Origin: Halisarca cf. caerulea
Lineage: Eukaryota > Porifera > Demospongiae > Chondrillida > Halisarcidae
Direction: 5' to 3'
Assembly (NCBI GenBank): GCA_963170055.1
Contig: CAUJGJ010000467.1
Coordinates: forward strand, 410,901 to 474,900
DNA: 64,000 nucleotides
Every line of letters starts with the position of its first letter. Within the stretch, counting starts at the first letter, position 1. Shown here one piece after another: positions 4,369 through 24,590 of this stretch. Under the pieces are notes generated by a model that was not told the origin of the DNA, ran no database searches, and saw nothing but the letters and a program-made list of their open reading frames with translations. The translations under genes were made by a program, and so were the position numbers.

Positions 4369-5782
4369 TCATCTCCGATCCCTTCTATCTCTTGATCTTG
4401 ATCTCCGATCCCTTCGATCTCTTGACCTTGACCTTGATCTTGATCTCCGATCCCTTCTATCTCTTGACTTTGACCTCCGATCCCTTCGATCTCTTGACCT
4501 TGACCTTGATCTCCGATCCCTTCTATCTCTTGACCTTGACCTCCGATCCCTTCGATCTCTTGACCTTGATCTTGATCTTCGATCCCTTCTATCTCTTGAT
4601 CTTGAACTCCGATCCCTTCGATCTCTTGACCTTGATCTTGATCTCCGTTCCCTTCTATCTCTTGACCTTGATCGTGATTTCCAAGTTTTCTCATCTGATT
4701 CTGATCTATAATCTTTTGATTTCCTTGCTTGATCTCTCCTGTCCTGCAGTTTCATCTGTGATCTATCATTTGAACAACTCCTAGATCGAGACCTCCTTAA
4801 TCTGTCAGTGTTTCAAAGTGAGAAGAAAAGGTTGGAGAACTACAGAAGAAACTATCATGACATACAGATCTTTCTATATGCGATATTCACTTACATGTCT
4901 TGGGGTTCTTTGTCCAAGTCTGCGAAGAGGTCGTATTTAGCTGTGTCTTCATCACTGTCATCCTCACTGTCCTCATCATTCAGTCCACTACCTTCTTCAG
5001 GAAGTGACTGAATGCTATAGTTTCCGTTTCCAGTTTCACCTCCAAGTGGGACTGCATGCTCTCCATCAGTAAGTTTGCGAAACTTCTTCTTCTTCTTTCT
5101 TCCAAACTACACACAAAAATTTAGTAGAAAAGATGTCTATTGGCAATAACAGTTCACCTACTTCATCAAATTCATCATCAGATTCCTCTCTTTCGATATA
5201 TTCAACATTCTCTCGTTCATTGTATCCCCCACCAGCTCCGGTGCGAGCTTCCACTTTACCAAATTTAGGCTCATTACAAATATTGCATTCACTCCTCCTT
5301 GCCCAGTTAATATTCCCGCATCTAAATGGTCATACATCATCAGTGCAGGGAAAGACGAGAATATATCACATCTGCTAGACAAAACTTAGCAGTAGAAAAG
5401 GTCAATACTCGACCACAAATTACTTGGCACATTGCCAGTCGTCAGCGCTGAAAAGTCCACCACTTTTAGTGGCCAAAGCTTTTCCTACTTCATGACCAGT
5501 CTTTTTAAATATGTCCACCTTTCCCTTCTCTACAGTACATGAATTAAGATAGCATGTCCACGGTCACAACAACCGAAGTCTTATTGAAGAAAGCCATTGA
5601 CAACCTTTCCCACACTTATTGCAGTTGGTCCGCCACGTAAAGTTGACATTGCCGCAACTAAACAGAAGCAAATCATTGATTAAGTCTTTAACGTAGTTTG
5701 ATAGACATAAAAAGCGGTAAACGTACGAGGAATCGGCACAAATCCAATCTCCATCGCTTAAGGGTGCTTTCTTGCTCGCCAT
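4369..5782 (-). CDS. ZRANB2: ZRANB2, RanBP2-type zinc-finger SR-like splicing protein
   Basis: Nuclear splicing regulator; in the family the two RanBP2-type fingers bind single-stranded RNA with 5'-splice-site-like GGU and the RS tail contacts spliceosome proteins. Six exons join in phase: 5727-5782, 5605-5657, 5424-5529, 5162-5321, 4895-5106, 4369-4801, giving 339 aa. Finger 1 (about residues 9-38) has DGDWIC, CGNVNF and NCNKCG; finger 2 (about 65-95) has DDWQCAKCGNINWARRSECN and CNEP. These are followed by the hallmark GGGYNERENVEYIEREES, a basic GRKKKKKFRK block, an acidic DEDSEDDSDED stretch and an RS/RD tail. The RS tail is encoded by a minisatellite (about 4372-4680). The start MASKKAPLSDGDWIC is 20 bp from the divergent CLPP start. 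Confidence 0.96.
4372..4680 (-). repeat. Coding minisatellite for the ZRANB2 RS domain
   Basis: Tandem units of 27, 33 or 39 bp built from the hexamers GATCTTGATCTC / GATCCCTTCGATCTCTTGAC on the plus strand. Read on the minus strand in the ZRANB2 frame they encode repeats of RSRSRDRRDRR. All unit lengths are multiples of three, so copy changes keep frame. Other frames of the same DNA are also open (EIEGIGDQDQGQ-type and its complement), which are shadows. Confidence 0.92.
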
Positions 5783-5802
5783 TTCTGTAAACGCCCAAGA
5801 AA
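5783..5802. promoter_or_regulatory. 20-bp bidirectional start region, ZRANB2 / CLPP
   Basis: Only 20 bp separate the two divergent start codons, so each transcript must begin inside or very near the other gene's first exon, or have an extremely short 5' UTR. Both starts sit in ATGGCG: GAAAATGGCGGC for CLPP and, on the other strand, CAGAAATGGCGAGC for ZRANB2. CLPP matches the YY1/TISU-type initiator (SAASATGGCGGC) at all but one position; ZRANB2 matches less well. No TATA box is present. Confidence 0.7.
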
Positions 5803-7665
5803 ATGGCGGCTACACTAGTACGACAATCTTTGCGATCAGTTACCTCTTTGAAAAGAAGCTGCTGGAAGTACTATAATATTATATACATGTGCTGTTTGTA
5901 CTACTGAGAATTTACATACCCAGCGTTTTTTTATCCGTAGGGTTACTATATCTAAACATGATATCACGAGACATTGGTCTGGGCTTATTCCAATTGTTAT
6001 TGAACAAACAGTTAGTGCTCTTGTACATGTAATGAATGGATCTCTATCGTTAATTACTTCCATAGGGACGAGGAGAAAGAGCATACGATATATACTCGAG
6101 ACTACTCAAGGAGAGGATCGTGTGTCTAATGTCCACAGTACATGCAATATCCATTCATGTTTAGATGATAACATGCAGTTTAGTATCTGTCCTTGTAGGT
6201 CACTGATGATGTAGCCAGTGTCATTATTGCACAACTACTCCATCTTCAATCTGAGAACCCAAAGAAAGTGATTAACATGTATATCAACAGCCCTGGTATG
6301 TGTTGAGTCTGTGCCAAGGAAGGCTTCCATGTGTTGTGTTGACTCTTAGAATAGATTGCAATTGCTGTTTGCAGGAGGTTCTGTGACAGCTGGGTTTGCT
6401 ATCTATGACACGATGCAGTATTTGTCTGTACCCATTTCAACCTGGTGTGTTGGCCAGGCATGTAGCATGGGTGCTCTATTGCTGGCCGCAGGAAGTCCAA
6501 CAATGAGAGTGGCCCTGCCTCATTCCAGAATAATGATTCACCAGCCATCAGGTTCTGTGGGGGTCAGTATTTTATATATGTATGTATGTATGTACGTACG
6601 ATTTTCTATCATTCAAAACTGTCTTCAAGTTGTTACGCTTCTTTTAAGGGTCAAGCTACAGATATTGCTATACATGCTGAGGAGATAGTCAAGGTGAAGA
6701 ACACATGCAACGAAATTCTGGCCCGTCACACTGGCCAGTCTGTGGAGCATATAAGTGAGTGAAATTGTACGAAATGTGGTCTACCCATTGGTCTTTGCTA
6801 GACTGATTAATGTAGCTATAACATGGACACAGTATGACTTTATGCGATATGAGTATCTAACATGCTGATAATTTGAGGTTTTGGAGAGACATGTTGTGAA
6901 ACCCCTCTATTCCAGACACCTCACATAATATTATATAGTGAATTATTTGGCTCCAGTCACATGTGCCCATTTTAGAGGGTGTCTGCTATTCCAGGGGGCT
7001 GTTCATTAGAGGGTGTCTGCTATTCCGGGGGGCTGTTCATTAGAGGGTGTCTGCTATTCCGGGGGGGGGGGGGGGCTGTTCATTAGAGAGCTCTAGATCA
7101 AGCCAAAAAGAAGCTAAAATAGACATTTGTCACCACAAAAAGTAAGCTTACTGTACTCAAGCAGGGAACGCAAATGGTAGCTTCCTTTAGGGACATTTAT
7201 TTGCAGAAGTCCAGAGCATCTGCTTAAAGTCCAGAAACAGATGCTATGATGGTTAAGACATGCACTCAGGCTGCGTGGCATAGTCTGGTGTGGCCAGACA
7301 GAATTCCTCCATTTGCAGGTCTGCATGGCCACGCCAGCAGACTAGTGTGCACATGGCACATACTATAACTGCAGCATTTGTACCTGCAGTGCTTATATCT
7401 GCAGTGCTTATATCCCCAGTGCTTGTATCTGCGCAGTGCTTATATCTCCAGCGCTTGTGCTTGCATGTATCTGCAGTGCGTGTACCTGTATTGTACCTAT
7501 GTAGCCATTTCTGTCAACAGCTTTGTGTCCTACATCTATTTTGAAATCCTTTGTACAGAGACATGTGTGGAGCGGGATCGTTTCATGTCTGCTAAAGAAG
7601 CCCTCGATTTTGGAATTATTGACAAGATAGCTGTTAATGAATACAACATCAACAATACAACATGA
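5803..7665 (+). CDS. CLPP: CLPP, mitochondrial ATP-dependent Clp protease proteolytic subunit
   Basis: Serine peptidase that forms the tetradecameric barrel of mitochondrial ClpXP. Seven exons join in phase: 5803-5867, 5941-6010, 6066-6137, 6199-6295, 6375-6562, 6649-6754, 7559-7665, giving 234 aa. The first 30 or so residues ([20 protein letters not shown]) are basic, hydroxylated and free of acids, as expected for a mitochondrial presequence. Family blocks: [67 protein letters not shown] and [20 protein letters not shown]. The catalytic triad is intact as Ser132, His157, Asp206, with the same spacing (25 and 49) as E. coli Ser97/His122/Asp171. The C-terminus is shorter than in human CLPP (277 aa precursor). 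The last intron (6755-7558) holds short repeats. Confidence 0.97.
6975..7090. repeat. About 36-bp repeat with G-run in CLPP intron
   Basis: About three copies of GGGTGTCTGCTATTCCGGGG followed by GGCTGTTCATTAGA. The last copy contains an uninterrupted run of about 14 G. A second low-complexity block of TGCAGTGCTTATATC-like units follows at 7385-7480. Both are within the 0.8-kb last intron of CLPP. Confidence 0.85.
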
Positions 7666-7796: not shown

Positions 7797-10700
7797 TCAT
7801 GATCTAACACTCTTTCTTGCTATCTTCTTGTCTGTCAGTGTTTTCTTCAGTTTTTTGTAATCTTCAGTGATTTCTCTGTGTGATTCCTGTTCCAGTCTTA
7901 GTTCTTCTTGTGTTAGTCTAATTCTCTTCTGTAAATTATTGTTTTCTCGCTCAAGTTTTACAGCCAATGCTTTCATGTTGTTCTGAAGAAGACAATGACA
8001 CTGACACACTAACACTTTCTACATGTTACATGGCAAAACAGTCCTCACATTGTGCGATAGCTTATGGGTACTAGTAGCTTGGTCTACATGAAAGCATTAG
8101 GTAAAGAAGCTTAATACATGTCAGGTCACCAAAGCCCTACATACCTTTCACTGGGGTTGAATTAGAAACCTCTAATCTCCTTGACAACTTTTCACATTCT
8201 TTTACAAGAGTTTTGTGTTGATCCTGGAGGCCTGTGTGGAGTTGCTTCTCCTTAACAACTAAAGTCTTCCAATGTTGTTCATCTAACAGGCACTCCATAC
8301 GATGCAACTGACTCACTATACTAATGCAAATACTACAAACTAACCTTGCTCAATTTTCTTCTTAAGTTCATCCTTTAGGCTTTTGGCCTTCAAACACAGT
8401 TCTCTGTACTTTGTGAGCATTTTCGTCCTAAATGTATAAGAATTTTTATTGTAGTTTGCACAACATAACCTGATGTTCACATGCAGGTTCCTTTGAGGAT
8501 AATGAAAAGAAGGAGCAATAACAAAGTGATGTAATGGGGGGGGGCAGATATATGAATACAATTGGAATCATAGTGGTCTATACTAGGAGTGTCTGGGGTG
8601 TGCTCCCCCAGGGAATTTCCTTTAGTTTTTAGGCCTCATAAGGGTCTGAGACCGTTTCAGTCAACTTGAAGTAGTTTCTGAATACAGTACACAGATCAGC
8701 CTGTTGCAATTGTGCATGTGCATTACAGCTAGGATAATATTTCAATGGGGGGGGGGGGGGGGGGGGATACCCCCTGTACCCCCCCCCCCCCCTCCCAAAC
8801 AAGAAACCCTGATGTATATGCATGTGTTTGACTGGATGGGTATGGGTACATGGGTACTGTCTGTTGGTGTGTGCATGGACCATTTGACAGTATGGTAGCA
8901 TACGTACCTGAGTGTTCTGTACTTCCTGAGGTCAGCTAACGTGGCATTCAAAACTAAAGAGGTGATAAATGAAAAGTAAGACTTCACTCACTCTAAGGGT
9001 AAAGATATGGAACTCACCAATGTCGCTATCTGATGATGTGATTGGAGGTAGAGGAGGGGACTTTGGAAAAGAATCTTGCAGGCTATTGTAGTGATTTGAT
9101 GAACCTTTTAGTTTCCTGTCAGTCATACACTTTGATGGATCCCATATCTCAGATGGGTGGTGAGGGGTGATGTGTCCATCAGCTGTGTGGTGAGGGGTGG
9201 TGCATTCATCAGCTGGGTGGTGAGGGGTGGTGTGTCCATCAGCTGTGTGGCGAGGGGTGGTGCGTTCATCAGCTGTGCAGTGAGGGGCAGTGTGTCCATC
9301 AACTGTGTGGTGAGGGGTGGTGCATTCATCAGCTGGGTGGTGAGGGGTGGTACATTCATCAGCTGTGTGGCGAGGGGTGGTGCGTTCATCAGATTTGAGG
9401 TGAGGGGTGGTGCGTTCATCAAATGTGAGGTGAAGGTTGGTGTATTTATCAGATGTGAGGTGAGGGGTGGTGTGTTCATCAGATGTGAGGTGAGGGGTGG
9501 TGTGTTCATCAGATGTGAGGTGAGGGGTGGTGTGTTCATCAGATGTGAGGTGAAGGGTGGTGTATTCATCAGATGTGAGGTGAGGGGTGGTGCGTTCATC
9601 AGATGTGAGGTGAGAGGTGGTGTGTCCATCGGCTGTGACGTTGGGGAGTGGCTGCCTGTGTGTTAGCTGCTGAGGTGATAATATCATGTCTGGTGTCTGG
9701 TGAAATGACAATCCTCTGTTGGGTGTCTGGTGATGTAATCTACTTCTGGTAGCAGGAAGGATTGAATGTCCATTCTGAATATGGGTGTTTGGTAAATGCC
9801 TGCCTGGTGATGATTGGTAAACATTTCTTTCCTGTAAAAGAGCTCCTGGAACTTCTATACATGAGGATGTAACCACACTCTTCAAACCTGTTTTATCACA
9901 CATCTGATACACCACATCATTCCCCACCCAGGTATCAGTCTCATCATCACATATGCTTGCACCTTCACCATCAGGCCTAGCTCCAAACAAAGTTTGCTCC
10001 AAAGCAACAGTTGCAGCCGCTACTTCTATGCCTTGCAGGTTGAGATCAACATGTAGGTTCGATGGACTGGGAGAGCTGGGTACAAGGGACTGGCAAGACC
10101 CAACTGAGTCAACCCATGACGCACTTTGCAAGGATGTTCCTCCAGAGTCTGAATCTACCCAAGAAGAAGTTGGACTGGAAGACACATTTGATGTAGTAGG
10201 TCTGCTCTCTGTAGTGGTTACATTACTCAACTCTGCAGTTCCCTCTGAGCTGGAGGCTAGGTTGCTAGACAGTGTATCCCGAACACTGTCTGATACATAT
10301 TCAATCGCCTGCCTTTTCTCTTTGAGCCTGCTGGTCTTCTTATCTGAACAGTCGGCTATAACACTACTTTCTTGAGATGTTGAGGCAATGGTAGCACATG
10401 CTGTATCACTTTGTTGGTTACCAATGCCTGCTCTATTCCCTCTGCATGCCGGGAAAGGCTCTTCTGTAATGTTCCCTAGTGCAGCAGTTACATGCCTCAT
10501 CAGTTCTGAGCCATCCAAAGTTGCAGCTCTGCGCCGTCTCTGGTAATCTACAGTATTACTACTGCTCACTTGTTGCATTGGATGTCGATGACTGTCATAA
10601 TGCCCTGGGAAGGGGAAATGAGAGGAGCGGGCCAAGTATTGACGTGGTCGAAGTGGTGAGAGAGAATATCGATGGTTGGTGATACCAAGATTACCAGTGG

Positions 10701-11522
10701 ATGGATTTACAGTTATATTACTGGAGCTCTTGTCAATGCACACTGAATCTATGATATAGATCTCTGATACGGCCACCTAAAAGACAAAGTACACGAAGTA
10801 TCTGTTTTAAGTACATTATTGCTAAACACAATTGAGCAATGAAAGACAAACATACCACATAATATTGTGGATATAAAATTAAATTAAATACAGTTTCTAA
10901 GAATCTTAGAAAGTGTAACAGAAAACAACTGTGTCTATAATACTTGAGTGTTAGGAAGTTTTCAATTCAATGCATATTAAACTCACAAAGGGCGGTGCAA
11001 AGAGAGATACTTTTAGAAATTCTTCCTGAAGAGAAGACACCTATTACACACGCACATTTTAAGTACACTGACATAAAACGATAGGTATTTAGTAAAATCA
11101 ATTTACCAATGCCATGTGTCGACCAACATTCTTCAAAAAGTGATACTTGTTCGGTAGGATGTCCGATTCTAACTGCTGCTTGCAAACACCTCTCAGTTCT
11201 TTGAGAGTAACTTCAGGTGATACTCTGAGCAAGAAGTCAAGAACATCAAGTATACTCTCCCCAAACAACACGTTAAAGTTGAGAAGAGCAATCTTCTAAG
11301 GTCAGAACGACCTACCTGACGAAACCAGAGGATATGGACTCCAGACAAACACTTGCGAATATACATCGCAGGTCGGCTCTCCACAGAAACGACGGAGCGA
11401 TAAGCACGTGCAAGTCTATAGAATTCTGTTCGGGGTCAGTTGCAAAGTACGCCACATAAATACCTTCGCAGAGTAGATGAATGGACAACTCTTACGTCTA
11501 AAGACTTGACAGATGTGGACAT
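7797..11522 (-). CDS. SPATA1: SPATA1-like spermatogenesis-associated protein
   Basis: Homologue of SPATA1, a testis/sperm protein with a conserved N-terminal domain and a C-terminal coiled coil; its molecular role is poorly known. Nine exons join in phase: 11496-11522, 11316-11425, 11107-11224, 10987-11025, 9018-10776, 8908-8953, 8345-8427, 8152-8315, 7797-7982, giving 843 aa (human about 460). N-terminal matches: LHVLIAPSFLWRADL, GFVRVSPEVTLKELRG, NKYHFLKNVGRHMAL and FLKVSLFAPPF. The large central exon is S/T-rich and disordered, and includes about sixteen 10-residue HTTPHLTSDE-type repeats. The C-terminal exons are heptad-rich (LTKYRELCLKAKSLKDELKK, LAVKLERENNNLQKRI). The extra length is the central exon. 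The first tiny exon and the 8152 donor (GTGAAA) are the least certain parts. Confidence 0.85.
8746..8796. repeat. poly(G)/poly(C) inverted tract in SPATA1 intron
   Basis: A run of about 20 G is followed by ATACCCCCTGTA and a run of about 14 C, so a strand can fold into a G-C hairpin or form G-quadruplex / i-motif. It is in the SPATA1 intron between exons 8345-8427 and 8908-8953. Confidence 0.85.
9150..9640 (-). repeat. 30-bp coding minisatellite in SPATA1 exon 5
   Basis: About sixteen tandem 30-bp units (plus strand GATGTGAGGTGAGGGGTGGT followed by GTGTTCATCA and variants) encode a 10-residue repeat HTTPHLTSDE / HTTPHHTADE in the SPATA1 frame. Unit length is a multiple of three. Because all frames lack stops, long antisense frames also appear here; they are shadows. 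Confidence 0.93.
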
Positions 11523-11575
11523 CGCCTCTCAACACGGCTCGGCGCACTTCGTTAGCATTTATAGCACCGCCCCCC

Positions 11576-11671
11576 TAGTCTCGTGAACCAGACCCCTCCC
11601 CGCCCTCCATTTTATCATTACGGGCGTAATGATAAAATGGAGGGCGGGGAGGGGTCTGGTTCACGAGACTA
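11576..11671. mobile_element. Near-perfect 96-bp palindrome (fold-back MITE)
   Basis: Two 47-bp arms are perfect reverse complements around a 2-base centre (GG at 11623-11624). The arms begin TAGTCTCGTGAACCAGACCC, similar to the ends at 2639-2717 and to a single arm at 15684-15722. An 8-bp direct repeat ACCGCCCC lies at 11566-11573 and 11671-11678. It is about 55 bp upstream of the SPATA1 start codon. Confidence 0.9.
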
Positions 11672-12556
11672 CCGCCCCATGTGACCACACCTACAACGAG
11701 GTCAGTTGAATGTCTATGGTTCAATGAAAAAGGATTCAATTAATCACATGAACCGTCACTCCAGCCTCTCAACCACCTCTCGTCTACTCTAGAACAGTCA
11801 AATTGCGGTTTCCCTAGGTGTTCATTGACTTCATTGTGTAATCGACACATCCACTGAGATAACTCCCTTTGGCTTGAAGCAATGGGCGGATCAATCTTCA
11901 ATCTGTGTTACACGAAAAGCAATTGCATCAACTGTGGCAATACACCAATAATCATCACTATTATCTATTCTCCAGGAAGCATTTGAATAGTAAACCCATC
12001 ACCTACTGTTCAGCGACTAATCACCTTTCCTGCATGTGTTGAGCACAAGGCTCACATGGATATACTTTGGATATAATATATATAAAATTTTCCATGTCTT
12101 TCTCTTGCTGAGTTGATGGGGTGGTTGGATAATATGCTGCTACTGTGTGCAAGAACGTCCATGTTGCTCGACCTAGCTCCTCACTGTCCACTGGGCATTC
12201 CTTCTTTACTACATCACCAGATTTCTAAAAACGTAATCACCACTAATAATCATAGCAATCCGTTTGCATGCACAGCAATGAATGTACATGTCCAATTCAG
12301 TGTTATCTTTGTTGTGATAATACTAACAACCATTCATTGTGCAGTAATGTTTATGTATTGCAATGAATAAACAAATGCTTGAAGATTGCCAGACCGGACA
12401 CAAATTTACTGGTTTGTGGGGTTCACAAGTCAGAGACTGTATGAAGACACTCAACATAAAAAGTAAGGACACACCAAAAATAAATACACATACAAAATTA
12501 AATATTATGATAGTTGGGACAATACTTTGCCCGACTTATTACCCGGGCGAGTAACT

Positions 12557-12665
12557 CATTGCAAGATGCAGACATTACAGTTTACCACAAACAAATTCAT
12601 TGTAAGATGCAGTGGATATGACAGTCTACTGCAAACTATCTCATTGTAAGATGCAGTGGACACAA
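12557..12665. repeat. About 47-bp degenerate tandem repeat
   Basis: Three diverged copies of TCATTGTAAGATGCAGTGGA plus a variable CTACTGCAAAC part. No coding potential is seen. Confidence 0.7.
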
Positions 12666-13064
12666 AGCTCAATGTGACAAGTTCCAGTGTGGTAATAAAT
12701 GACACGAGAAAGTTGTGAAATTCGTTCACTTTTGCATTCGTTCCAGATTTAGATTTACCATAACAGTAACGGAAGGGGATGGTTAACGTGTGGGTGATGC
12801 CAACACAGACTCTTCCAGTCCTACACATCAACTTATGATGTGGCCATAGCGCACAAAAGTATGCCCGGTCTAAATTTAAGTAAATGGTGACAAGCGTGGA
12901 ATTCTATGTTTCAACAGACACAGATGAACCTTCTGTTGCTGACGGGACCAGTTCTTGAAATCAGAGCACACACGACAAACGTTTGCGGCCATTTTTGTTT
13001 GCATCTCTATGAATATCATTAGTAAACCCTGCAGGGGGTCCTTTAGGAGAGAGAAGCCAGCAGG

Positions 13065-15194
13065 ATGATTCCGAACGGTAGCAGCAACAGCAACAACAAC
13101 AGCAATGTTCCAGTTGCGCCAGGCGTAATCGTGAATCCTGGGACGCCGTTTTCTATAGCCAGTCCAACTTTTCCAGAGGACAATGCGGTACGCTTTCTGC
13201 CATCACTATCCTACAGGCGTAGCGTTTTGTCCGGGGGGCGGCCAATCTCCGACCTCCCCGTCTACGACACCCCTGCTCCGATAAAGCAAGAATGTCTCCA
13301 AGAGCCTTGCATCAGGTCATTTATTGATCCACACGGCAACCCAAACCGATCATCACAGCTGAACCAACGGGGAAGAGTGAGTGGAAGTCATCTGTTAAGA
13401 CCGCCCAACTCATTGAATCCGGTTTCTCCTACTTTCTCTGACGTTTCTTCAGTACGTCTTACTCCTCGATCGCCGAATTTTTCTAGATACTGTAACTCTG
13501 GCTGTCCAGCGTCACTTCATGAAATCTTCAAAACTCCGGAAGGTTCCAGGAAAAACTCATTGACCAGCAGACAGCTTCATCAAAGCTTTGATCTTGACGA
13601 CGCTGTTCTCTTTCCTCTATATCCTCCGATCCAGTCGTACTCTCCATACCTTAGCAGTCCGCTGTTGAGCAGTCCTCAGCATGTCCTGGGATCCAGGAAG
13701 AGAACTCTATCTGTGTCTCCCTTTTCCGATCTTGCTGACCTCAATACAATGAGAGGCTCTCCCAACTCGCTATCTATAGCTGGAAATTCCCCCTTTCAAC
13801 CCGGGTCTGTTGGTCACCTTATAGGGCATCTACCCAGTCCAGCTGCAACCCCCACCTTTGTTCACTATCAAGTCCAGCAAAGGAAGACATCCATTGAACA
13901 CAATCATGGGCGGCTAACGATAACTAACCAAGTCACTTTTACAGAGGCTCCAGCCACCCTTGTGCCTCCAACAGAGTACAGCTACAGCACTGCCAGTATG
14001 ACCCAAGATACATGGTCGAACAGCCAATCATCCATTGGGAATATGGTTCTCAGTGGCCCTGGCACAATGGATACTGATGCTGATGTTGGAGGTACAATAG
14101 CAGATACCACAGATATTTCACAGATGGAAATTACTGCTGCTGCTAAATCACTACTGTGCTGTCGATGGAAGGATTGTTCAATGGCTTTTGAGGATCAAGA
14201 TGATTTAGTTCGACACATTGAAAAGGCACATGTTGAGCCAAAGAGGAGCCAGGATGATTATGTATGCATGTGGGAAAAATGTTCTCGAAGCCAAAAACCT
14301 TTCAATGCTCGATACAAGCTCCTCATTCACATGCGTACACACTCTGGGGAGAAGCCTAATCACTGCACAGTGAGTCATTACCATGATCTGCTGGTTTCCC
14401 CTTTGCTTTATGGTTGACTATAGCTTGTTTCTTCATTTGTGCATGCAGTTTCCAGGCTGTGATAAGGCATTTTCGCGAATGGAAAATCTTCGAATTCATT
14501 TGCGTTCTCACACTGGAGAACGCCCCTACCCTTGTCAATTTCCAGGTTGTTCCAAGACTTTCTCAAACTCCTCAGATAGGTCCAAACACCAAAGGACACA
14601 TTACGATCAGGTGAATTAAGGATTATAATATTACATGCACAGATTTGATATAACCTATATACTTTCCTTCATGTGCATGTCCCATACTTCTGCAGAAACC
14701 TTATGGTTGCTCACATCCTGGGTGTACAAAAAAGTACACGGATCCAAGTTCATTGAGAAAGCATGTCAGGACACACACACAGCCAAGGAAAAGGGTATAG
14801 GGAATATCTGTGCTCCTAGCTGCATGTGTGATCGATCTAGAATTATATTATAACTGTTATTTGTTTGCTTCAGATCAAAAATGATGAAGAGGACTTGAAC
14901 AATATACTAACTGTGCAACCTATTCAGAAAACTAATAAGGGAAAACCCCTTGCTGTCATTCATGGCTACACACTAGCTAATAGCCCATTACATCCACCAG
15001 CTCCTGAAGCGGTAACATGGCCTCAATACACAGACGATCAAGGCACAGATCCCTCCTATTCCTTGCAGCCGTTAACTCCTCAATGCTCTGGACCATACAT
15101 GTCACTGGATGTGTTCCCATCTTCTACAACACACCCTCTGCCACACCCTCTGCCACACCCTGCACACCCACCACCTCCTTACTCGTCACATTAA
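13065..15194 (+). CDS. GLIS-family Kruppel-like zinc-finger transcription factor
   Basis: DNA-binding regulator of the GLI/GLIS/ZIC superfamily. Four exons join in phase: 13065-14369, 14449-14610, 14696-14794, 14874-15194, giving 628 aa. Five tandem C2H2 fingers span about residues 364-522: [52 protein letters not shown] and [20 protein letters not shown]. The signature [20 protein letters not shown] is GLIS-type; GLI proteins have PFKAQYMLVVHMRRHTGEK. The last finger is followed by basic QPRKR. The N-terminal 360 residues are Ser/Pro-rich and disordered; the C-terminus is proline-rich ([20 protein letters not shown]). I cannot tell which of GLIS1, 2 or 3 is closest, so no symbol is given. 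The single long first exon keeps the first two fingers together. Confidence 0.92.
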
Positions 15195-15436
15195 CCTGAT
15201 AGAACTTATTTACTGCATAATATGTAGTTCTACAATGTTTTGGTTTGTGCATGGCATGATATTATAGTTGCATGTGTTTTGTGACAAGTTATAACTAACT
15301 AGAGTACCAATGCATCTTTTATAGGGCTAAAGTGGTATCACAATATGATAACGCAAGAAGACTTTAATACTAATTGACCGTTATAGGGCAAGCCCCTTTC
15401 ACTGAAATAATTAAACTTGCATAATATTATGTACAT
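15195..15436. other. 3' flank of GLIS-like gene
   Basis: AT-rich sequence after the GLIS stop codon, expected to contain its 3' UTR. No further gene and no clear poly(A) signal are recognised. Confidence 0.4.
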
Positions 15437-15683
15437 AGTGCACCAAAACGGACAACAGCCAGTCAAAATGGCTAAAGCAAAACAGAAGTATAGAACTTTG
15501 TATAAAAGCTGCTGTCCTCATGTACCATTCTCCTTTGTGAGTAGATGTGGATTGTGTCGGTTGTAAACTCAAATAGTGCTGAATTCAGAAAAGGGGTAAC
15601 TCCAAACCCAGGTGCATGACCAAGACCGATCAGGCTATACTACCTTTACGCCATTGTTCAAAGTACAGGATCCAGGAAGCCAG
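15437..15683 (+). mobile_element. Promoter-like interspersed repeat, copy 1
   Basis: About 240 bp aligned by eye with 23512-23747. Shared landmarks: a CACCAAAACGGACAACAGCC-like stretch, TATAAAAGCTGCTGTCC, TTTGTGAGTAG, GAATTCAGAAAAGGGGTAAC and GGATC(C/T)AGGAAGCC. The conserved TATAAAA box suggests an LTR or a transposon 5' end. At 15684 the match stops where a TAGTCTTGTGAACTGGACCC MITE-like arm starts. Confidence 0.7.
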
Positions 15684-15724
15684 TAGTCTTGTGAACTGGA
15701 CCCCTCCTTGTCCTCCATTTTATA
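15684..15724. mobile_element. Single arm of the TAGTCT MITE family
   Basis: TAGTCTTGTGAACTGGACCC, CTCC and TCCTCCATTTTATA closely match one arm of the palindrome at 11576-11671. No second arm was found nearby, so it is a solo or truncated copy, or the end of a longer element. Confidence 0.65.
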
Positions 15725-16330
15725 AATATGCTTGTTTCATCCCATGCTCTTCCATTCCATGCTGTTCCATCCCATGCTCTTCCATTGACTGGAGTGACTG
15801 CCAGCTGTGATGGGCTGTGGATGTGACAGTGTCACTCCTGTAGGCTCCCCGCTTGGCAGTCATCCATTTCTTGTGCTGCTCTACCTCGATCCGCCCCTTG
15901 GTAGCACAGAGGTACCTCAATCCAGTTAGGAGGTGCTGGATGTAGGTCCTAATTGTTCCCTGTTGTAGCTTTCTTTCTATTTGAATCCACTCTAGGAATC
16001 CCTCCACCCATTTGCGTTCTCCAAGGCATTCCAAATTAGGCTGCTGAAATCCAGTCCTCTCTGGGGGGAGGGGGGGGGGGGGGGCTGCTGAAATCCTGTC
16101 CTCTCTGTGGGGAGGATGGGGGAGGAGGTGGGGCATCCTTGGGCAGGGGAGGGGGGCTGCTGAAATCCGGTTTTCTCTTGGGGAATAGAGGGATCCTTGG
16201 CCAGAGGGGACTGCTGGGGCCCAGTCCTCTCTGCAGTTTTCTTTGGTTGGATAATTTCAGGTGGTATCATCTCCATAAACTCTCCATAGAGCTCCTCTTG
16301 ACTCTGATTCATTGTTGTTGGCTTCAACTA
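15725..16330 (-). pseudogene. Transposon-derived reading frame, possibly tyrosine-recombinase N-terminal region
   Basis: Two overlapping minus-strand frames (about 15992-16327 and 15720-16136) look like one protein broken near a G-run at 16065-16083. The upstream part is proline-rich with three copies of ERTGFQQP. The downstream part, FLEWIQIERKLQQGTIRTYI followed by LLTGLRYLCATKG, is helical and resembles the SAM-like core-binding domain of tyrosine recombinases (DIRS or Crypton type). No catalytic R-H-R-Y residues are visible. The tail MEEHGMEQHGMEEHGMKQ comes from a 15-bp tandem repeat at 15735-15785. Assignment is tentative. Confidence 0.35.
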
Positions 16331-16544
16331 AACCACCTGCTGAGGAGTTGCTGTTCTATATAGTGCCTGTCTGCCAGGGAATGGCTTCAGACACTGCACA
16401 ATGCCCATAGTATTAATGTTGGGTTTCTTTCTTATTCCATCCTTCAGAGCCAAGTACCATCTGTAATCTCCCTCTCTCTCCAATGATGATGGTTAACAGT
16501 ACGTATGTACTAAGTATGCTTTCTCTTTCTCTGCACTTGCTCCC
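16331..16544. other. Unassigned sequence before microsatellite
   Basis: About 200 bp, probably part of the same transposon-derived region. I see no gene or structured repeat. Confidence 0.4.
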
Positions 16545-16600
16545 TGTGTGTGTGTGTATGTGTGTGTGTGTGTGTGTGTATGTGTGTGTATGTGTGTATG

Positions 16601-16631
<31 letters not shown>

Positions 16632-16647
16632 GTGTATGTGTGTGTGT

Positions 16648-16696
<49 letters not shown>

Positions 16697-16715
16697 GTGT
16701 ATGTGTGTGTGTGCA

Positions 16716-16776
<61 letters not shown>

Positions 16777-16784
16777 ACGTGCAG
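16545..16784. repeat. (GT)n microsatellite
   Basis: About 240 bp of GT with scattered TATG interruptions. Open frames of CVCVCV and THTHTH type are artefacts. Confidence 0.96.
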
Positions 16785-16955
16785 TTGTGTATTTATTTAC
16801 ATTCTTCTTCATTCTCCCTCCAGATATGTGTTCTGCGGCCCAAAAATGCCGGTTGGAGTATTCCATGAAGAGCAATCCACAGCAGTACATTTGCTATTGC
16901 GTGAAAAAAGTAATCAAGGCCACGTACATGTACGTATGATGTCATTTCCGTGTCA

Positions 16956-16958
<3 letters not shown>

Positions 16959-17012
<54 letters not shown>

Positions 17013-17105
17013 GTGTGCAGAGTGTCACTATATAGTATATAGAGTGTCACCATGAGTATAACATACAAAGTGTGCCAGTGAGTATGCAAAATGTGTCAGT
17101 GAGTA
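16959..17105. repeat. (GT)n tract and decayed AGTGTCACCATGAGTAT-like repeat
   Basis: A pure GT run (16959-17010) is followed by about five degenerate copies of an AGTGTC(A/C)C..TGAGTAT unit up to 17105. It lies immediately upstream of the TXNL1-like exons. Confidence 0.75.
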
Positions 17106-17149
17106 TACAAAGTGTCCCAGTCCAACCAGGTGAAGAAATGTACTTGTGC

Positions 17150-17530
17150 AGCAGAAGTTGTATCACTTTGCAGCTGTTTGCCAAGGACAACCAAGGTGAT
17201 GAGGATGAAACATGTCTGGAGTATTTGTCAAGGACAACCAAGGTGATGAGGATGAAACGTGTCTGGAGTATTTGTCAAGGACAACCAAGGTGATGAGTAT
17301 GAAACGTGTATGGAGTATTTGTCAAGGACAACCAAGGTGATGAGGATGAAACATGTTTAGAGTATTTGTCCTTTTATGGAACTCCTTTGGATGTGACTAA
17401 CATGAAGGACTTTAAGAGAGTATGTCTCCATGGTAACATCACCACGCATTTAAGCTAAATCTCCATTCTGTGTATTAATGGCCTATTTCCTCTGGTCCAG
17501 GTGACTGGTGAAACAGGAGAGAGTCACTAG
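17150..17530 (+). CDS. TXNL1-like 3' terminal exons (PITH domain), partial
   Basis: The C-terminal end of a thioredoxin-like 1 protein, a proteasome-associated redox protein. Exon A (about 17150-17419) reads SCITLQLFAKDNQGDEDETC at its start and EYLSFYGTPLDVTNMKDFKR at its end. Exon B (17501-17530) reads VTGETGESH then a stop; the human ending is VVGKKGESH. The 17420-17500 intron is GTATGT...CCAG. Inside exon A, four 47-bp tandem copies (17196-17383) break the frame unless 17196-17336, which starts GT and ends AG, is spliced out; then the frame is exactly restored. No thioredoxin domain or upstream PITH exons are visible between 15195 and 17150, so this is a partial duplicate or gene fragment. 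Confidence 0.7.
17196..17383 (+). repeat. 47-bp tandem repeat in PITH-domain exon
   Basis: Copies start at 17196, 17243, 17290 and 17337, each GTGATGAGGATGAAACATGT and so on, ending ...GGACAACCAAG. Every junction has the form CCAAG|GTGATG. Three extra copies total 141 bp, a multiple of three, although 47 is not. Confidence 0.95.
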
Positions 17531-17689
17531 ACTGTGCAACTACATGTACTAATGTACTCGGAAATTGTACGTTAGACAAACTTAATTGATTGATGATAGT
17601 AACTGCAGATATTTAATTACTATTCTTACACACTAGTCTAATACACAATGTACTAAGTTAGAGATTACAACATTGAAACTTGGAGCTGC

Positions 17690-18732
<1,043 letters not shown>

Positions 18733-18900
18733 CTTTTGATGTTCAAAGTCTAATAAGCACGTGATGTATGTAACAGTCACGACACATCACAGGTCAATGC
18801 TGAAAAATTGAAAGATTATATATACAAGTTCTCTCTGTTTAGTTTACAATAGAATACAGTCCACATAATGATTTAGGGCACATTTGGGAGAGCACTAACA

Positions 18901-19100
18901 NNNNNNNNNNNNNNNNNNNNNNNNNNNNNNNNNNNNNNNNNNNNNNNNNNNNNNNNNNNNNNNNNNNNNNNNNNNNNNNNNNNNNNNNNNNNNNNNNNNN
19001 NNNNNNNNNNNNNNNNNNNNNNNNNNNNNNNNNNNNNNNNNNNNNNNNNNNNNNNNNNNNNNNNNNNNNNNNNNNNNNNNNNNNNNNNNNNNNNNNNNNN
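18901..19100. other. Assembly gap (200 N)
   Basis: Exactly 200 N. True gap size is unknown. It separates the enolase pseudogene from exon-like sequence at 19101-19330. Confidence 1.
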
Positions 19101-19330: not shown

Positions 19331-19794
19331 AAACAAAAGTAGTAATGTAAATAACAACAAAACTAAAGCTATACAAGACATATTTTATACACATATACAT
19401 GCACACATTGTGAATGCATAAACAAAGAGACTCGCATTACAAGACTACATAGCCATCAACAGACACTATCCAGACAATAATACACAGAAAATACAACAAA
19501 AAGGATAGCAATATTATGTCATTAGATGTGCTAACCTTCGCCATGAAACCCACTACACACCAGCAAAGTTGCTGCTCAACACAATATTTGTGACACTACA
19601 TTTAGAGGATTTCACCTGTTCATAATTTCCATGGTAAGAGGCATGCTATTGTACAAAAATGGCTACCAGCAGACGTTCAACAGCACCTTGCCAGACAGAC
19701 AATGGAATTCTAAAGCCCCATACAAAGGATCTTTGGCTAACTTTTCGTTAACAGGAGTCTCCTTAACACCTGATGCTCCAAGAGGTGATAAGAG
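19331..19794. other. Unassigned AT-rich sequence before minisatellite
   Basis: Mostly non-coding, apart from the open stretch near 19687-19765 noted with the candidate exon. No repeat or known element is recognised. Confidence 0.4.
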
Positions 19795-21905
19795 TAGAGA
19801 GAACACATCACTCAATGTGTGGAGAGAACACACCACTCAATGTGTGGAGAGAACACACCACTCAATGTATGGAGAGAACACACCACTCAATGTAGAGAGA
19901 ACACACCACTCAATGTAGAGAGAACACACCACTCAATGTGTGGAGAGAACACACCACTCAATGTATGGAGAGAACACACCACTCAATGTATGGAGAGAAC
20001 ACACCACTCAATGTATGGAGAGAACACACCACTCAATGTATGGAGAGAACACACCACTCAATGTAGAGAGAACACACCACTCAATGTAGAGAGAACACAC
20101 CACTCAATGTAGAGAGAACACACCACTCAATGTATGGAGAGAACACACCACTCAATGTATGGAGAGAACACACCACTCAATGTAGGGAGAGAACACACCA
20201 CTCAATGTGTGGAGAGAACACACCACTCAATGTATGGAGAGAACACACCACTCAATGTATGGAGAGAACACACCACTCAATGTGGAGAGAACACACTCAA
20301 TGTGGAGAGAACACACCACTCAACGTAGAGAGAACACACCACTCAATGTAGAGAGAACACAGTGACACTACTCAATATAGAGGGAGAACACACCACTCAA
20401 TGTAGAGAGAACACAGTGACACTACGCAATATAGAGGGAGAACACACACTCAATCTACAGAGAACATACACTCAATGTACAGTGAACACATCACTCAGTG
20501 TGGGGAGAACACACCATTTAGTGTGTAGAGGACACACCACTCAATGTACAGTGAACACACCACTCAATGTGGAAAAAACACACCATTCAATGCGGAGAGG
20601 GAACACGGCCACTCAATGTAGAGAGAACACATCACTCAATGCGGAGAGAACACATCACTCAATGTAGAGAGGATACGCACTCAATGTAGAGAGAACACAC
20701 CACTCAGTGTGGAGAGAACACACCACTCAGTGTGGAGAGAACACACCACTCAATGTAGAGAGAACATACCACTCAATGTGGAGAGAAAACATCACTCAAT
20801 GTAGAGAGGACACAGACTCAATGTAGAGAGAACACACCACTCAATGTGGAGAGAACACACCACTCAATGTGGAGAGAACATACCACTCAATGTGAAGAGA
20901 ACACACACTCAATATAGAGTGAACACGCCACTCAATGTTGAGAGAATACACCATTCAATGTAGAGAGAACACACCACTCAATGTAGAGAGAACACATCAC
21001 TCAATGCGGAGAGAACACATCACTCAATGTAGAGAGGATACGCACTCAATGTAGAGAGAACACACCACTCAGTGTGGAGAGAACACACCACTCAGTGTGG
21101 AGAGAACACACCACTCAATGTAGAGAGAACATACCACTCAATGTGGAGAGAAAACATCACTCAATGTAGAGAGGACACAGACTCAATGTAGAGAGAACAC
21201 ACCACTCAATGTGGAGAGAACACACCACTCAATGTGGAGAGAACATACCACTCAATGTGAAGAGAACACACACTCAATATAGAGTGAACACGCCACTCAA
21301 TGTTGAGAGAATACACCATTCAATGTAGAGAGAACACACCACTCAATGTAGAGAGAACACATCACTCAATGTAGAGAGGATACACACTCAATGTGAAGAG
21401 AACACACACTCAATATAGAGTGAACACGCCACTCAATGTAGAGAGAATATACCACTCAATGTAGAGAGAACACACACTCAATGTAGAGAGAACACACACT
21501 CAATGTAGAGAGAACACACACTCAATGTACAGAAAACACACCACTCAATGTAGAAAGAACACACCACTCAATGAAGAGAAAACACACCACTCAATGCGGA
21601 GAGAACACATCACTCAATGTGGAGAGAACACATCACTAAATGTGGAGAGAACACACCACTCAATGCGGAGAGAACACACTTTCAATGTAGAGAGAACACA
21701 CCACTCAATGTAGAGAGAACACATCACTCAATGTAGAGAGAACACACCACTCAATGAAGAGAAAACACACCACTCAATGCGGAGAGAACACATCACTCAA
21801 TGTGGAGAGAACACATCATTAAATGTGGAGAGAACACACCACTCAATGTAGAGAGAACACACTTTCAATGTAGAGAGAACACACCACTCAATGTGGAGAG
21901 AACCA
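19795..21905. repeat. 22-27 bp minisatellite (GAGAGAACACACCACTCAATGT)
   Basis: About 90 tandem units of GAGAGAACACACCACTCAAT plus GT, GTGTG, GTATG or GTA. Two larger blocks within it are near-identical: about 20640-20990 and about 21005-21355, offset about 365 bp. Frames such as WREHTTQC are repeat artefacts. Confidence 0.95.
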
Positions 21906-22995: not shown

Positions 22996-23511
22996 ATGGG
23001 GTTAGACACACTAGTCTAAAGCTGCATGTGTATGTCCAGCAGTAAACTACTGCATTGTCTCACATCTGCTGATCCAAAGTCACTTGATCCAATGTGCCCT
23101 GTGCGCTATAGAGGCAAGAACAAGTGAAAGTTTGTGAAAAGTCAAACAGTAGAGATCACTGCCAAAAAGTCTCAAGAGCTAACTTGACAGTTTGAAGGTA
23201 ATCCAATCATATGCTTGTCAACTATCGTTCTTCTAGGCTGTGGAGAACACAAAACAAAATACATTATTGTTTAAATACTAGATCCTAGAGGCATCACATT
23301 GCCCACTTTATGCCATAAGAGTATCTATGCTGTAACTTCGTTAACTGTGTTTTAGTTTCCTAGCCATTCTTGCCTGACTGTGACACACCCTGCAAGGACT
23401 CTGAGCATCAAGATAGTATAATCTTTCGCCAGTACTGCATCGACGGGGCGTAGACATGTCTTCCTGTACGCTAAGGGGTAGCCCCTCCATTTCACCAATT
23501 AATTAGCTTGG
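22996..23511. other. Unassigned sequence after minisatellite
   Basis: About 500 bp without recognisable gene or repeat. Confidence 0.4.
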
Positions 23512-23747
23512 CACACAAAGCGCGCCAAAACAAGACAACAGCCAATCAGAATGCTCAACATTAAACGGAAGTAGAACTTTAGTATAAAAGCTGCTGTCCC
23601 TCGCCATTTTCTTTTGTGAGTAGTTGTTGTGTTGGTTGCAGGCTCCAATAGCGCTGAATTCAGAAAAGGGGTAACTCCGAACCCGGGTGACCAAACCGAC
23701 CAGGCTACTACCTTGCGCCCATGCTGGCGGGATCTAGGAAGCCCGTA
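23512..23747 (+). mobile_element. Promoter-like interspersed repeat, copy 2
   Basis: Aligned with 15437-15683. It includes TATAAAAGCTGCTGTCC at about 23584, TTTTGTGAGTAG, GAATTCAGAAAAGGGGTAAC and GGATCTAGGAAGCCC. Here the match continues into a downstream tandem array, so this copy may be the 5' part of a larger element reaching 25.6 kb. Confidence 0.7.
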
Positions 23748-24103
23748 GTAGTCTCCCTTAAGGGGTCCTGGAGTAAGTCTTCGGTGCGGGGCGTTAAGGG
23801 TCAGCCGCATGGCTCTACTCACCAACCTTTTGTCGGTGTACGGTCGGAGCTTGCAGATTGGGTACGGTCCTTGCTCCTTAAAGACGCGGGAGTTGTGAGT
23901 TTGAGTTCGCCCTTGCAGTGTTGCTTGCCACATGGTCCTTTGGAGGCAGGTCCGCTTCATTGGAAGTGGGAAGGGCCTGTAAGTTACCGTTCTCTTCTCC
24001 ATCTCTTTGCTGTCTAGTACCCAGCGGTGTGATGTAAGGCCCGTGAGACTTGCAGATCATCGCCCGGTTACACGTATCGTATGTGTGCCGGTGCACGGTG
24101 TCA

Positions 24104-24590
24104 GTCGGTGTACGGTCGGAGCTTGTGATTGGGTGCGTCCTTGCTCCTAGCAGACATTTTGGTGGGTGTCTGAAAGTACCCAGCGGTGACGTGTCATCGC
24201 ACGGCTACACTTTGTGTGCCACAGTCGTTGTACGGGTCGGTGTACGGTCGGAGCTTGTGATTGGGTGCGTCCTTGCTCCTAGCAGACATTTTGGTGGGTG
24301 TCTGAAAGTACCCAGCGGTGACGTGTCATCGCACGGCTACACTTTGTGTGCCACAGTCGTTGTACGGGTCGGTGTACGGTCGGAGCTTGTGATTGGGTGC
24401 GTCCTTGCTCCTAGCAGACATTTTGGTGGGTGTCTGAAAGTACCCAGCGGTGACGTGTCATCGCATGGCTACACTTTGTGTGCCACAGTCGTTGTACGGG
24501 TCGGTGTACGGTCGGAGCTTGTGATTGGGTGCGTCCTTGCTCCTAGCAGACATTTGCGAGGCGGTGTCTGAAAGTACCTGTAGTTCCAAC
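24104..24590 (+). repeat. 132-bp tandem repeat
   Basis: Units start GTCGGTGTACGGTCGGAGCT at 24104, 24236, 24368 and 24500, exactly 132 bp apart and nearly identical. A diverged partial copy lies at 23834. As 132 is 44 codons, the array is open in one frame (24050-24571, VGVRSELVIGCVLAPSRHFG repeated); with no homology I treat that as incidental. It probably belongs to the same element as 23512-23747. Confidence 0.93.

Follow-up and report, generated by a model that had tools for sequence, protein, structure and literature searches.

Minisatellites (VNTRs) can arise through microhomology-mediated tandem duplication, in which a direct repeat flanks the founding unit, the period is tens of base pairs and the number of units varies. 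Satellite-linked segmental duplications spread truncated genes to many sites. The locus described here, a 47-bp array in an exon of TXNL1 in the sponge Halisarca cf. caerulea, shares the same three features with minisatellites, with the differences that its founder is an exon and that the copies compared are paralogs, not alleles. As in satellite-linked segmental duplications, truncated genes are found here at many sites, and satellite DNA accompanies them in the block or contig.

Exonic tandem duplication is also the basis of the Rogers model of intron gain, for which cases have been described in ATP2A1, the potato RdRp gene and fission yeast (accessible text of PMC4974935, PMC3443670 and PMC3629103). 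As far as the accessible text of PMC4974935 and PMC3443670 goes, vertebrate ATP2A1 and potato RdRp resemble our locus in having an exonic tandem copy, the AGGT of the Rogers model, a removable GT...AG segment and relatives with one copy. They differ from it in that here the host gene is incomplete, the acceptor is weak and the case is known from sequence alone; potato RdRp, in the same text, further differs from the array in that its acceptor and pyrimidine tract were inherited from a real intron. The fission yeast genes SPOG_01682 and SOCG_00815 are alike in carrying several exonic tandem units with a proto-splice site, which is given as AGGC in the accessible part of PMC3629103 and as AGGT in that of PMC4974935. 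Multi-unit arrays crossed by an intron are, in that part of PMC3629103, already covered by the fission yeast case with spliced ESTs, in contrast to the gene studied here, which is truncated and read from DNA alone. The array is very probably a minisatellite born in a truncated TXNL1 pseudogene fragment within a widely duplicated block, and not a newborn intron.

A 47-bp tandem array in exon 6 of a TXNL1 copy

The whole 64-kb stretch analysed, hereafter the window, is part of contig C434 of the assembly that was searched (194.5 Mb; 194.47 Mb in 454 contigs). Tandem Repeats Finder, run on the window, placed a tandem array at 17177-17370 of the plus strand (period 47, 4.1 copies, 94% matches, 0% indels), for which chance is no explanation, the array being far beyond it. 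The array lies in exon 6 (17174-17419, plus strand; acceptor TTTGCAG, donor AGA/GTATGT, the slash marking the junction), the sixth of seven TXNL1 exons and part of the PITH domain. This exon measures 246 bp against 105 bp in the parent gene and holds three extra 47-bp units. Repeat finder and sequence both bear out the four 47-bp copies that a sequence-only reading of this DNA had reported in a PITH-domain exon, with AAG/GTGATG junctions (CCAAG/GTGATG) after 17195, 17242, 17289 and 17336. That reading had gone on to propose three of these units, 17196-17336 on the plus strand, as a candidate intron with GT...AG ends, a segment that we judge to be retained repeat DNA.

Reading straight through the array does meet stops, as had been stated. 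If the four units are all retained, translation in the TXNL1 frame runs LFAKDNQGDEDETCLEYLS...QGQPR, followed by two stops, V and another stop, all three in the third unit, and stops are present in all three forward frames of the retained array. Three units amount to 141 bp (3 x 47), which is divisible by three, so that downstream of the array the frame is correct with all four units, and the claim that excising three copies restores the frame was mistaken: only the internal stops go. Without the 141 bp, exon 6 would be open and continuous with the real intron 6 (17420-17500, plus strand, GT...AG intact) and exon 7 (17501-17530, plus strand, VTGETGESH and stop). The nested alternatives of 47 or 94 bp that had also been suggested would, if excised, leave the downstream frame shifted. 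Outside the array, exon 6, intron 6 and exon 7 of the window copy are free of frameshifts.

The stretch common to the window and the parent locus has its left edge at about 17009, at a 21-22 bp minisatellite in the former TXNL1 intron 5 (17019-17121, plus strand, from repeat finder and comparison), and exons 1-5 of TXNL1 were not found anywhere in the 64-kb window. A chimeric gene with an upstream exon at about 16824-16945 was considered and rejected; one frame of this stretch gave no Pfam match, and related stretches in C323 and C2 carry indels and substitutions, with an in-frame TAG in C323 (by eye).

The intact parent gene and its truncated copies

Contig C266 carries a complete TXNL1 of seven exons and 296 amino acids (297 codons with the stop) with one 47-bp unit, the intact TXNL1 elsewhere that the sequence-only reading had named, together with a silent window copy, as counting against it. 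Its product contains the Pfam domains Thioredoxin and PITH; residues 2-296 match Protein Data Bank chains of TXNL1 (E = 8.4e-77), and the alignment with such a chain has no gap over residues 209-296, exon 6 included. Because exon 6 at C266 (5113-5217 of L014, reverse-complemented; 105 bp) has one unit and aligns gap-free, one unit was taken as ancestral. Residues 1-190 (exons 1-3) have close matches in the assembly only at C266 (96, 93 and 98% identity), the remaining five of eight matches being weak (29-59% identity), and the part encoded by exons 4-5 gave two matches, both at C266. As a functional TXNL1, C412 was rejected, its PITH exon belonging to a different gene, which we take to be PITHD1. 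A copy of the duplicated block's tail also lies on the contig of C266 (41143-42354), so that the intact locus and the duplicated blocks are not clearly set apart from each other. An insertion of about 1.1 kb separates the intact TXNL1 from the intact enolase there (L014, reverse-complemented, 5503-6565), with a duplication of about 175 bp at its flanks; the copies compared showed no such insertion at the corresponding position.

Searching the assembly DNA with the 341 bases around the array gave at least 18 matches at 11 loci or more, the window included. Four units were counted in the window and in C290a, seven in C284 and C290b, eight in C344 and two in C86, and a single unit in the parent, C300, C2, C323 and C15; among the matches listed, six of the ten non-parent exon-6 loci have 2-8 units and four have one. 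Unit number varies between these related copies (1, 1, 1, 1, 1, 2, 4, 4, 7, 7, 8 across the 11 loci, parent included), as is the mark of a minisatellite or VNTR. Units 2 and 4 of C344 have one and the same sequence, with five differences from the common unit, as would be the case if a block of two units had been duplicated at a later stage.

The ten non-parent stretches examined, 64 kb in the case of the window and 9.5 kb at every other locus, contain none of exons 1-5, and all but that of C290a contain exon 7. All the expansions are in truncated copies, and some of these have suffered frameshifts or the loss of a splice site as well. C290a has an extra T and lacks the exon-6 donor; C284, C344, C86, C290b and C2 have exon-6 indels outside whole units, none being seen by eye in the window, C300, C323 and C15; and some units of C284 and C86 have small indels or junction changes. 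The C323 junction reads AAGGAGATG, so the AGGT is lost there. Exon 6 or 7 is damaged in several copies, that of the window being undamaged outside the array. A retrocopy origin was rejected, because intron 6 and the end of intron 5 are still present. The copies have the character of pseudogene fragments: they are truncated copies of an intact gene with the flanks copied along, the intron kept (DNA-level copying) and disabling changes in the copied genes.

A duplicated block with a broken enolase

Parent and copies have in common a block that starts towards the end of TXNL1 intron 5, takes in exons 6 and 7 and a convergent single-exon enolase, and reaches into a 23-bp minisatellite, which in the window occupies 19794-21903 (plus strand; repeat finder and comparison), at the right of the shared block. 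The window enolase (17692-18732, minus strand, its start codon placed by eye) faces the TXNL1 fragment tail to tail and is broken by a 162-bp deletion common to other copies and by frameshifts and stops, the stops numbering 16 when summed over three overlapping pieces, out-of-frame reading included. At C266 the enolase is intact (436 amino acids, no stop); the 17 further loci that were compared have a broken or partial gene, and no second full-length enolase is among the 35 matches of the family search. Thirteen enolase copies join parent position 1090 or so to 1253 (the 162-bp deletion), including eight of the ten array-bearing loci, the enolase stretches of the array-bearing C284 and C300 being too short for the deletion to be scored. 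Because these thirteen copies have the deletion in common, they probably descend from one defective founder; the enolase fragments of C208, C152, C402 and C226 keep part of the 162-bp stretch and so arrived by another route.

Several copies of the block extend jointly into a 1.25-kb tail (23012-24259 of the window, plus strand; comparison and assembly search), which was found in at least 40 places in the assembly, C266 among them (40 of the 81 candidates scored), and which in C290a abuts the 104-bp satellite. Tail pairs are inverted, 4.6-14 kb apart, on C290, C226 and C152, and several large contigs have the tail site once or as a pair; at a guess, these could mark centromeres. About 255 copies of the 104-bp satellite fill 37382-64000 of the window. 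It is a major satellite of the assembly, a 30-base piece of it giving 17,248 matches (10,033 forward, 7,215 reverse; at most one mismatch) and the backward control 0.

Three other features of the window were recorded. The bases matching the flanks of a run of 200 N (18901-19100) are directly adjacent in C290a and C344, so the run may be a join and not missing sequence. A C2H2 zinc-finger gene with short introns at about 13065-15194, presumably GLI/ZIC-like, adjoins the pseudogene block, its first frame matching Pfam zf-C2H2_15. A near-perfect palindrome at about 11577-11670, with arms of about 45 bp, looks by eye like a small inverted-repeat element, and a similar stretch was seen by eye near 15690.

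Origin of the unit and history of the array

In the parent gene, the 47-bp unit is flanked by TTTGTC direct repeats exactly 47 bp apart. Such homology of at least 6 bp was present in 0.19% of 247,000 breakpoint pairs of the block (spacings 20-119), and we infer from the TTTGTC microhomology that the founding event was replication slippage or microhomology-mediated end joining.

The GT...AG ends of 17196-17336 were correctly described and add nothing, because any tandem copy of an AGGT-containing segment has them. Of the possible 47-bp segments, 95 of 585 in the exons of the parent TXNL1 bear AGGT and hence would be removable as GT...AG, and the same holds for 136 of 1278 in the reading frame of the zinc-finger gene nearby. 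Among window repeats with a period of at least 20, three of 18 hold AGGT on the plus strand, the 47-bp unit included, and three others on the minus strand (18 of 29 such repeat rows counted, most of those left out giving the same arrays at another period).

A maximum-likelihood tree of the flanks, built with the array excluded (17 rows, 2437 of 2613 columns), placed the eight-unit C344 as sister to the one-unit C15 with support of 100/100, in a tree much of whose backbone is poorly supported and which gene conversion among copies could distort. In a tree of the 11 array-bearing loci alone, the same pair had support of 99/99. A single clade of the six multi-unit copies was rejected on this 11-locus tree (p-AU 1.8e-5, a cost of 54 log-likelihood units), in a test whose group was defined by unit number and which followed sight of the first tree; that tree requires three or more switches between single-unit and multi-unit states. 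Since an eight-unit copy is sister to a one-unit copy and the multi-unit clade is rejected, units come and go; in the truncated copies the array thus appears to have grown, or shrunk back to a single unit, more than once, which is how a minisatellite behaves.

Splice sites of the candidate intron

Were 17196-17336 a newborn intron of the Rogers type, it would be spliced from a transcribed TXNL1 paralog and the protein would be spared. The near-identical tandem copies with AG/GT, the opening of exon 6 on removal of 141 bp and the absence of frameshifts elsewhere in exon 6-intron 6-exon 7 all fit such an origin, the model is established and a multi-unit case has been published (accessible text of PMC3629103). 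We scored the candidate sites with splice matrices from 11 introns of three genes (six of TXNL1, three of the window zinc-finger gene and two of the C412 gene), a small model in which candidate sites were scored with all 11 introns in the matrix and real introns by leave-one-out. The candidate donor, at 3.7, falls within the range of real donors (1.3-10.0) and exceeds two of the 11 (1.3 and 2.5), at the 71st percentile of GTs in 9601-18900 against the 91st-100th for real donors. The candidate acceptors (AAG), with log-odds of -7.8 to -8.7, score lower than any of the 11 real acceptors (-4.8 to 9.2) and rank at the 5th-8th percentile among the AGs of the region (the 8th for the proposed intron) against the 91st-100th, and pyrimidines make up 44% of positions -20 to -5 against 56-81% in real acceptors. 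The real acceptor and donor of window exon 6 scored 5.1 and 8.5 on the same matrices, values that are not independent controls because these sites are related to two of the training introns; this acceptor lies only 22 bases upstream of the first array junction.

Taken on these scores, efficient splicing of 17196-17336 is unlikely. The sequence-only reading had attributed an intron to duplication of an exonic AGGT, and its two halves fared differently. Duplication of the exon segment stands on the one-unit parent and four other one-unit paralogs in the same assembly. The intron reading of 17196-17336 is not supported: exons 1-5 are absent from the window, with close matches only at C266, where TXNL1 is intact; array length is free among truncated copies, to which the expansions are confined, some of them with frameshifts or a lost splice site; and the acceptor is below every real one compared. 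Among the features of introns born by tandem duplication, the locus has the AGGT-containing exonic copy and the one-copy ancestor, and it lacks a complete host gene. We therefore regard a newborn intron as very improbable, and the window copy is presumably neither transcribed nor spliced. A broader version, in which some multi-unit copies would be transcribed and the spliceosome would remove whole units, making the 1, 2, 4, 7 and 8-unit loci a series of intron birth, seems very improbable.

A probable minisatellite of exonic origin

False expansion of the repeat in the scaffold is a further explanation to be weighed, the region being repeat-rich with 200 N at 18901-19100; against it, substitutions distinguish the units and arrays of 2, 4, 7, 7 and 8 units are found at five other loci, and an assembly artefact is highly unlikely. 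Retention of the array as coding sequence for a longer PITH protein, which the 141 extra bases would permit by preserving the downstream frame, has a practically negligible probability given stops in all three forward frames and missing exons 1-5.

For a minisatellite within a truncated pseudogene fragment, the history may be envisaged as follows. A block made up of the last part of TXNL1, from the end of intron 5 to exon 7, and of the convergent enolase would have been copied to many sites of the genome from a TXNL1-enolase locus like the intact one at C266, leaving promoter and exons 1-5 behind. Within copies, the 47-bp stretch of exon 6 between the two TTTGTC repeats would then have been tandemly duplicated, by slippage or microhomology-mediated end joining, and units gained and lost through slippage or unequal exchange. 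The GT...AG ends of the supposed intron would be a by-product of the AGGT within the unit.

The locus carries a caution, in that a tandem exon copy bearing AGGT always has the look of a perfect new intron, and only RNA, paralogs and the completeness of the gene can settle the matter. It also provides a small series of minisatellites that probably derive from an exon, and for these the parent gene still shows the 6-bp microhomology of the founding step. Were one of the copies spliced after all, the duplication model of intron gain could be tested on it directly.
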